Shown here: in pieces, positions 41,732-43,444 of the stretch
Numbering within the stretch: position 1 is the stretch's first letter
Layout: each line of letters begins with the position of its first letter
Assembly (NCBI GenBank): GCA_947468275.1
Contig: CANIKO010000014.1
Coordinates: forward strand, 1-64,000
DNA from: Bacteroidota bacterium
GTDB lineage: Bacteria; Bacteroidota; Bacteroidia; NS11-12g; UBA9320
DNA length: 64,000 nucleotides
Reading direction: 5' to 3'
The notes under the pieces: model-generated
Seen by the model: the letters and a program-made list of their open reading frames with translations, nothing else
What the model was told of the DNA's origin: nothing
Databases searched by the model: none
Translations under genes and position numbers: made by a program

Positions 41732-42709
41732 CTAGTAATAAGCAAACTGCTCAATTCGTATATTAGGGACAGCCATATATAAATCTTTAGACTGATATCC
41801 TTGGGAAATGGTAATTCTTTCCTTTAATAAGCCTAAATAATTGTAAGTATAAAATATTTCAGGGAAATAAAAATTATTTGGCATTTTATTGGTAATGTCA
41901 TCTTCATGGGTTTTATGAGTAATACTTGTTAGTCTTTTATCCATATTGTAATTGTAAACAGTTTTTAAAGAATAAGGGTCGTAATATTTTAAATTATCAT
42001 CTTTAATAGTTTTTTCTATAATTAATCCATTTTGATAAATACTTTCAATGTGATAACCTTCTCTCCATCTTTTAATGTGATTTAGTCCATTTGTATCTAT
42101 TTCAAATGACAATGAATCTAAATGGTTTTCCCATTTGGTTTTAATTAGTTTATTCGCTTTATCAATGGTAAAAGTTGTTCCTTTCCAATGAGATGAAGTA
42201 TCTGTCAAAACAATGTTATCATTTTCATTCCTTAAGAATTTTGTATCAAAGTGAATTCTTTTTTGATACTTTGTTTTAATTTTTACCATTGAATATGAAT
42301 AATAACCAATAATTCGGCCTTCGTCGTTATAAGTTATTGAATCAATATTTTCATACTCTTTATTTTTAAATTCCGAATAAATTAATTGGCCTGATTTATT
42401 GTATTTGTAAATAGTTTCTGATAGTATCTTTTTATTATATGCATTTGATGAATTGGATAAGTTGTAATTCTGTTCCGAAATTAATTGCCCTGATTCACTA
42501 AATTCAAAATCAGTAAATGAATTATTTCCAACAAAATATTTAATCGTTCTAATTTTAGCCATTTTAAATGTTGCTATTTCACTCTCTGTAAAAGGTAACT
42601 GCCATGCGAAAGGTGAAATATAGTCAGGCTCAAAATTTTTAGGAATCTGAGAATATGTTAATATTGGGCAAACAAATATTATCAGAATAATTTGAAAAGA
42701 TATTTTCAT
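41732..42709 (-). CDS. Secreted hypothetical protein with YD/wapA-like YxxxGxL motifs
   Basis: Signal peptide MKISFQIILIIFVCPILTYSQ; FEFSESGQLISEQNY, YKYNKSGQLIYSEF, ITYNDEGRIIGYYSY. Confidence 0.75.
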   Translation of the reverse strand: MKISFQIILIIFVCPILTYSQIPKNFEPDYISPFAWQLPFTESEIATFKMAKIRTIKYFVGNNSFTDFEFSESGQLISEQNYNLSNSSNAYNKKILSETIYKYNKSGQLIYSEFKNKEYENIDSITYNDEGRIIGYYSYSMVKIKTKYQKRIHFDTKFLRNENDNIVLTDTSSHWKGTTFTIDKANKLIKTKWENHLDSLSFEIDTNGLNHIKRWREGYHIESIYQNGLIIEKTIKDDNLKYYDPYSLKTVYNYNMDKRLTSITHKTHEDDITNKMPNNFYFPEIFYTYNYLGLLKERITISQGYQSKDLYMAVPNIRIEQFAYY

Positions 42710-42783
42710 GGTTTATTATAAACGTTTTTAATAATTTTTTAACGTTTCAAATATAATTTAAAGTGTCCCTCTGTCAATAATTT

Positions 42784-42887
42784 AGGCTAAAGCCAATGGC
42801 CTTTTATTATTTTTTATCAGTTCATTAGAATGAACTGCAATGGATGGTTTGTAGCCAAATCCATTGCCGTTGGCTTTAGCCAACGGC
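42784..42887. repeat. Composite palindromic REP-like element
   Basis: ggctaaagccaatggc/gccgttggctttagcc arms (15/16), hairpins cagttcatt-ag-aatgaactg, gcaatggat..atccattgc and gccgttggct-tt-agccaacggc. Confidence 0.88.
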
Positions 42888-42993
42888 TTTAAAAGATTTT
42901 TAAAGAAATCCTGAATTTTTTAAATCCTAAAAATCATAGTCAAGACAATTAGGCAAAACAAAAATTAGCAAAACTGAAAAAAATCGTGTTGGT

Positions 42994-43296: not shown

Positions 43297-43444
43297 CCAT
43301 AACAGAAATACTATCAGATTCATTGGGAATTAAATATGGTCATTCGATATGGCAAATGTTTAAAAATAAATCGCAGATTAGATAATACCAATTATTACAA
43401 AATAAAAATAAATTAATTATCAAATATTAATTACATATCAAATA

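Follow-up and report, generated by a model that had tools for sequence, protein, structure and literature searches.

A probable REPIN-like palindromic element in a Bacteroidota genome and its association, in related genomes, with a clade of IS200-type Y1 transposases

Structure and copies of the element

The window, i.e. the whole stretch of 64,000 nt analysed here, belongs to a 3.3-Mb Bacteroidota genome of 32 contigs and 99.3% completeness (G000). Between two divergently read genes it contains a composite of hairpins, the parts of which are listed in Table 1. The individual hairpins described for this region by the first-pass annotation are all present at the positions given there, namely CAGTTCATT-AG-AATGAACTG at 42818-42837, the pairing arms GCAATGGAT (42837-42845) and ATCCATTGC (42859-42867), and GCCGTTGGCT-TT-AGCCAACGGC at 42866-42887. 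DNA folding of the 127 nt from 42774 to 42900 yielded -26.1 kcal/mol compared to a mean of -11.6 for shuffled sequences (z -5.7), which is far better than chance, as none of 200 shuffles folded as well. The annotation had also proposed long-range arms, and GGCTAAAGCCAATGGC (42785-42800) and GCCGTTGGCTTTAGCC (42866-42881) indeed match at 15 of 16 positions; however, these arms are best read as belonging to two different hairpins, hp2' and hp1, which both contain GGCTTTAGCC, and not as the two sides of one large stem. The copy has the anatomy of a REPIN: it contains two 20-nt palindromes in inverted orientation, the 9-bp stem of each being immediately preceded by ATTG on its 5' side, and the GGCTAAAGCC hairpin lies outside them. 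Outside the genus, the full element comprises about 165 nt in the order AATGGGGCTAAAGCCCC, about 20 nt, CCGTCAGTTAAAACTGACGG-CAATGGAT, spacer, ATCCATTG-CCGTTGGCTTTAGCCAACGG, about 20 nt and GGGGCTTTAGCCCCATT, and the right-hand hp2 of this arrangement is absent from the window copy.

Table 1. Features of the composite copy, in window coordinates
Feature	Position	Strand	Remarks
Whole composite copy	42784..42887		Order hp2'-hp1'-foot-spacer-foot-hp1; based on hairpins, folding and comparison with full copies
hp2', left outer hairpin GGCTAAAGCC	42785..42794	-	GGCTTTAGCC on the minus strand; followed by AATGGCC
hp1', left palindrome CAGTTCATTAGAATGAACTG	42818..42837	-	9-bp stem, 2-nt loop
Left foot CAATGGAT	42838..42845	-	ATCCATTG on the minus strand; ATTG directly 5' of the palindrome
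Spacer separating the inverted halves	42846..42858		13 nt
Right foot ATCCATTG	42859..42866	+	ATTG directly 5' of the palindrome
hp1, right palindrome CCGTTGGC-TTTA-GCCAACGG, as a whole CCGTTGGCTTTAGCCAACGG	42867..42886	+	9-bp stem, 2-nt loop

A DNA search of G000 identified three further composite copies (C19:13428, C3:124502 and C3:124618, the latter two side by side), hence about four in all, and several single right-hand hairpins. A degenerate pattern matched 15 sites in G000, 20 in G005 and 11 in G004, all of one genus, and none in four other genomes of that genus (G001, G002, G003 and G006); the reversed pattern, used as a control, matched nowhere. At least one of the 15 sites in G000 (C5:29221) is a coding coincidence, and weak matches inside coding genes (L007, L013, L019, L047 and L051) were rejected as chance. 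The genuine copies of the three positive genomes occur in varied gene contexts and mostly between ORFs, a few single hairpins touching or lying in long ORFs, and in the sister copies the left palindrome reads CAGTTCAC-TAAA-GTGAACTG. Several sites are common to G000, G004 and G005 by descent. The window copy itself also occurs at its orthologous site in G005, between what we take, from our own reading of the ORFs, to be a recF-like and a DUF721-like gene; it is absent in G001 and G002, and a trace of it may persist at the orthologous place in G006. Sister species lack two of the G005 copies, one near an atpD-like gene and one at L046, at the orthologous place. The element is present or absent at orthologous loci between species, with spacers too diverged to fix its exact ends or a clean empty site. 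In G000, but not at the orthologous position of G005, a minus-strand ORF of 325 aa (41732-42709) separates the recF-like gene from the element. The AT-rich spacer at 43328-43444, a candidate for a further repeat, has many partial matches elsewhere in G000, G004 and G005, shows no structure and is possibly of low complexity. A second dispersed repeat, gatgcctcgttcctcggcatgac...gtcatcccgac...gagggatctca, adjoins element copies in the flanks of L002 and L038.

Across the phylum, the hairpin is carried by 26 of 396 sampled Bacteroidota genomes, and an exact scan of GTDB genomes for CCATTGCCGTTGGCTTYAGCCAACGG returned 50 stretches, all of them from Bacteroidota or Balneolia MAGs by title. One MAG titled Chitinophaga pinensis TrH-25oct19-45 (L107, G068) apparently represents the G005 genome of the window's genus, and its name is therefore probably wrong. 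Up to 28 palindrome sites per genome were counted in the sample, and a genome that was picked for carrying palindromes has 112. While the ATTG core of the foot is conserved, the outer GGAT differs between genomes, and some lineages have an ATAG foot. Similarly, the letters of the stem vary while pairing is kept: among 112 distinct 16-mers, 62% of stem cells pair in register compared to 7-36% when slid by 1-3, and three pair types are common at several stem positions. Only the foot was used to locate these 16-mers, but some of the sites belong to loci that had been retrieved by means of the hairpin, and the count is therefore biased towards it. Measured from start to start, the offset of the two halves is 41 nt in the window copy, while eight contigs of genome G059 show 42 nt. 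This spacing suggests that the element spreads as a doublet; single hairpins also occur.

Association with one clade of IS200-like Y1 genes

An IS200-like Y1 gene lies directly beside the hairpin at L096, L104, L103 and L130. In a first survey, the Y1_Tnp genes of 22 hairpin-holding genomes and relatives yielded 84 ORFs for analysis. The right palindrome hp1 flanks the Y1 genes at L096/L186, L104/L173, L170, L246, L247 and L253, and CAGTTCACTTTAGTGAACTG is located just upstream of the Y1 gene at L155. Within this survey, foot-bearing palindromes at near-fixed positions, about -97/-99 and +43/+46 at the three closest genes and -54 and +51 at L186, occurred only at members of one clade, and in the tree all six strictly flanked genes fell into a single clade of eight rows (98/90 for seven rows, 80/79 for all eight). 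A sister line, which includes a gene of G006 from the window's genus (L064), shares GGCTTTAGCC but differs in its palindromes (CTCCGCCTTTTAAGGCGGAG; CCACGCCCTTTAGGGCGTGG); the G006 gene (contig C189) is located among several CTCCGCCTTTTAAGGCGGAG palindromes with the GGCTTTAGCC companion.

The clade alignment (A1) was searched over the 396 Bacteroidota genomes and identified a member in 64, 58 of which have one gene copy. From these hits the best 30 were picked by protein score only, 29 with a readable ORF. Of the 29 clade genes, 25 had a palindrome with a minimum of 8 bp at a distance of up to 160 bp, either on one side or on both. Such palindromes were present in 5 of 109 distant control windows (540-1000 bp) and at 15 of the 57 other IS200-like genes (p 1.5e-7); the thresholds were set after a first inspection, with controls treated alike. 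The apex was TTTA/TTCA or the complement (TAAA, TGAA) in 42 of 43 hairpins of clade genes, whereas the loops of the other IS200-like group were mixed. When ten earlier clade and sister genes were included and the hairpins were read with the foot 5', 40 of 47 had TTTA or TTCA, directly preceded at the stem mostly by ATTG and in some cases by ATAG. The GGCTTTAGCC hairpin in matching orientation, i.e. GGCTTYAGCC upstream or GGCTRAAGCC downstream, accompanied 23 of the 29 clade genes compared to none of the 57 other IS200-like genes and none of 14 RAYTs (p 1e-15). At some clade genes the palindromes differ or were not detected. At the level of genomes, a clade member is present in 10 of 12 with at least four hairpin sites (G000 left out) and in 54 of 383 others (p 3e-7), and in 11 sampled genomes hairpin sites lie beside a Y1 gene by coordinates. 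No clade match was found in G183 (12 sites) and G203 (6 sites), and no Y1_Tnp match at all in G064 (46 sites) and G062 (33 sites), both draft MAGs.

The clade enzymes comprise about 145-148 aa with a Y---Q--HH motif. HxH, Y114, Q118 and H122 are invariant in alignment A1, and the first H of HH is K in two of the eight rows. A profile search matched the enzyme to the TnpA proteins of IS608 and ISDra2, and an AlphaFold model (mean pLDDT 86.7) matched ISDra2 and IS608 TnpA and, lower down, E. coli TnpA_REP (4er8) in the PDB. By motif, length and phylum, the clade would fit TnpA subclass 1.2, and the partner enzyme is probably not a RAYT.

Origin of the window copy and alternative explanations

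No member of the partner clade was found by profile search in G000. The clade profile gives far lower scores to the three IS200-like Y1 genes of this genome, of which two branch elsewhere in the tree and one is interrupted by a stop codon; they were rejected as partners, being of the wrong clade and without flanking palindromes. The G000 genes at L031 and L032 share the Y---Q--HH motif and yet have no terminal palindromes. As no clade enzyme was found, the copies of G000 appear to be orphans, relics that were inherited together with those of two sister species, and they are best read in this way unless the enzyme resides in the missing part of the assembly; accordingly, the link to the enzyme runs through relatives only. 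We consider it probable that the window holds a copy, now in decay, of a non-autonomous palindromic element of REPIN-like type that is partnered in relatives with an IS200-type Y1 clade. The first-pass annotation had suggested a Bacteroidetes REP/BIME-type element moved by an enzyme encoded elsewhere. The assignment is supported, and since the element is multi-copy, intergenic, arranged in inverted pairs and, in other genomes, adjacent to Y1_Tnp genes, it is neither a single-copy sequence nor one without a similar hairpin beside such a gene, the two findings named there as speaking against it. The enzyme elsewhere holds for relatives or for the past, and not for the almost complete own genome.

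The mechanism that we envisage is based on analogy. Each half-unit consists of a 9-bp perfect palindrome with the apex TTYA, which is immediately preceded on its 5' side by ATTG and followed by the small GGCTTTAGCC hairpin, and two such half-units in inverted orientation make up the dispersed element. The putative partner, an HUH Y1 transposase clade of the IS200 type, is usually encoded by one gene per genome between two inverted half-units. As for TnpA_REP and IS608 (PMC8266576, PMC3116915), the enzyme may bind the hairpins in single-stranded DNA, with the ATTG foot serving as the guide sequence; the conserved tyrosine would nick and rejoin the DNA, and the paired unit might be copied or moved in trans, thereby spreading inverted doublets. 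More broadly, and with somewhat better than even confidence, it might be hypothesized that this is a second, RAYT-independent REPIN system, in which an IS200-type clade turned into a resident single-copy gene maintaining ATTG-TTYA palindromes across Bacteroidota, the stem having changed with the enzyme lineage and the foot, apex and companion hairpin having remained largely fixed.

Alternatively, the copies might be ordinary MITE-like derivatives, i.e. ends of a mobile IS200-type IS and not a REP-type population that an enzyme resident in the genome keeps up. The partner is IS200-like by sequence and fold, and its gene resides between inverted half-units as an IS does between its ends; however, this gene is single copy in 58 of the 64 positive genomes, as opposed to the up to 28 palindrome sites in the sample and 112 in the genome picked for them, and the two ends are mutually inverted, which renders this explanation unlikely. 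The ends of IS608, in comparison, are not inverted relative to each other.

It is very improbable that a RAYT (TnpA_REP) of the same genome moves the element, which would then be a canonical REP/BIME. Its architecture is REP-like, and G000 does contain RAYTs, two near-identical ones (L034 and L035; one was scanned and lies above the NCBIfam cut-off) and a further RAYT-like gene (L036) below the cut-off. These were rejected as partners, as their flanks lack the palindrome and carry other repeats; in addition, none of the surveyed RAYTs is accompanied by the GGCTTTAGCC hairpin, the foot is ATTG and not GTAG or GTGG, and the enzymes that are associated with the element belong to the IS200-like Y1 clade. 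The RAYTs at L034 (G000:C7:111054) and L035 (G000:C20:9250) are 93% identical and reside amid a different palindromic family, cgagtt...aactcg with ggctggttcgag, possibly the REP family that belongs to these two genes. The more distant gene at L036 (G000:C1:80291) is flanked by the inverted repeats gccaagtcagccc...gggctgacttggcggc.

We regard as similarly remote that the element belongs to a family of structured RNAs or transcription terminators without any link to transposition. The strong folding and the position of hp2, 4-9 nt past the stop codon of many Y1 genes, would be in line with such a role, and hp2 could also end transcription of the Y1 gene. However, no Rfam family was found for the window element beyond weak chance matches, the window copy lies between divergently read genes and copies elsewhere in varied contexts, and the tie to one transposase clade would be left unexplained. 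Finally, chance palindromes in AT-rich spacer DNA, as are some weak genome matches in coding genes (L007, L013, L047 and L051), are ruled out by repetition, given the folding z-score, the many exact 26-base matches in other genera and the lack of any match to the reversed pattern.

Comparison with known systems

Like REPINs and REPs with their RAYT/TnpA_REP enzymes (PMC3116915, PMC8049555, PMC8266576), the elements described here are short extragenic palindrome repeats in inverted doublets of set spacing with a conserved tetranucleotide 5' of the stem, and their many copies contrast with a single enzyme gene that has such palindromes on its flanks. The TTYA apex is in line with T-T-N-A, a rule that has been reported for the Marinomonas REP. 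The differences reside in the foot, which is ATTG or ATAG and not GTAG/GTGG (or CGTC), in the flanked enzyme, which is IS200-like with Y---Q--HH and not a RAYT with YIxxNP, and in the second conserved hairpin, GGCTTTAGCC, that accompanies each half-unit. Thus, the element works like a REP/REPIN but departs from it in two defining features, the GTAG foot and the RAYT partner. With the GTAG- and CGTC-tagged palindromic repeats (PMC3733652), it shares tagged short palindromes that occur intergenically as singles and inverted dimers; those families are defined by GTAG or CGTC ends, unlike the tag found here. The enzyme resembles IS200/IS605 members such as IS608 and ISDra2 in its fold, its catalytic residues and the subterminal hairpins with a 5' guide tetranucleotide. 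However, several complete copies of gene plus ends per genome, as in that family, were not observed (one gene in 58 of 64 genomes), the ends are inverted instead of like-oriented, and there is a large population of palindromes without a gene. Motif, length of about 145-148 aa, low copy number and occurrence in Bacteroidetes agree with TnpA subclass 1.2 (PMC6006769). This subclass has been reported to be generally without typical terminal secondary structures (PMC6006769), whereas the present clade has terminal hairpins at near-fixed positions, and the pairing of palindrome and enzyme therefore looks new. Neither the palindromes nor this pairing are described in the literature searched, mostly without subscription papers and preprints, and a search for REP repeats with IS200 in Bacteroidetes returned only known REP papers. 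Our analysis proposes DNA partners for a group of transposases for which none had been described, in a phylum in which REP-type repeats are little charted. It also provides a natural comparison with RAYT/REPIN, as two enzyme lines seemingly reached the same design of a tetranucleotide foot, a perfect stem and a TTNA apex.
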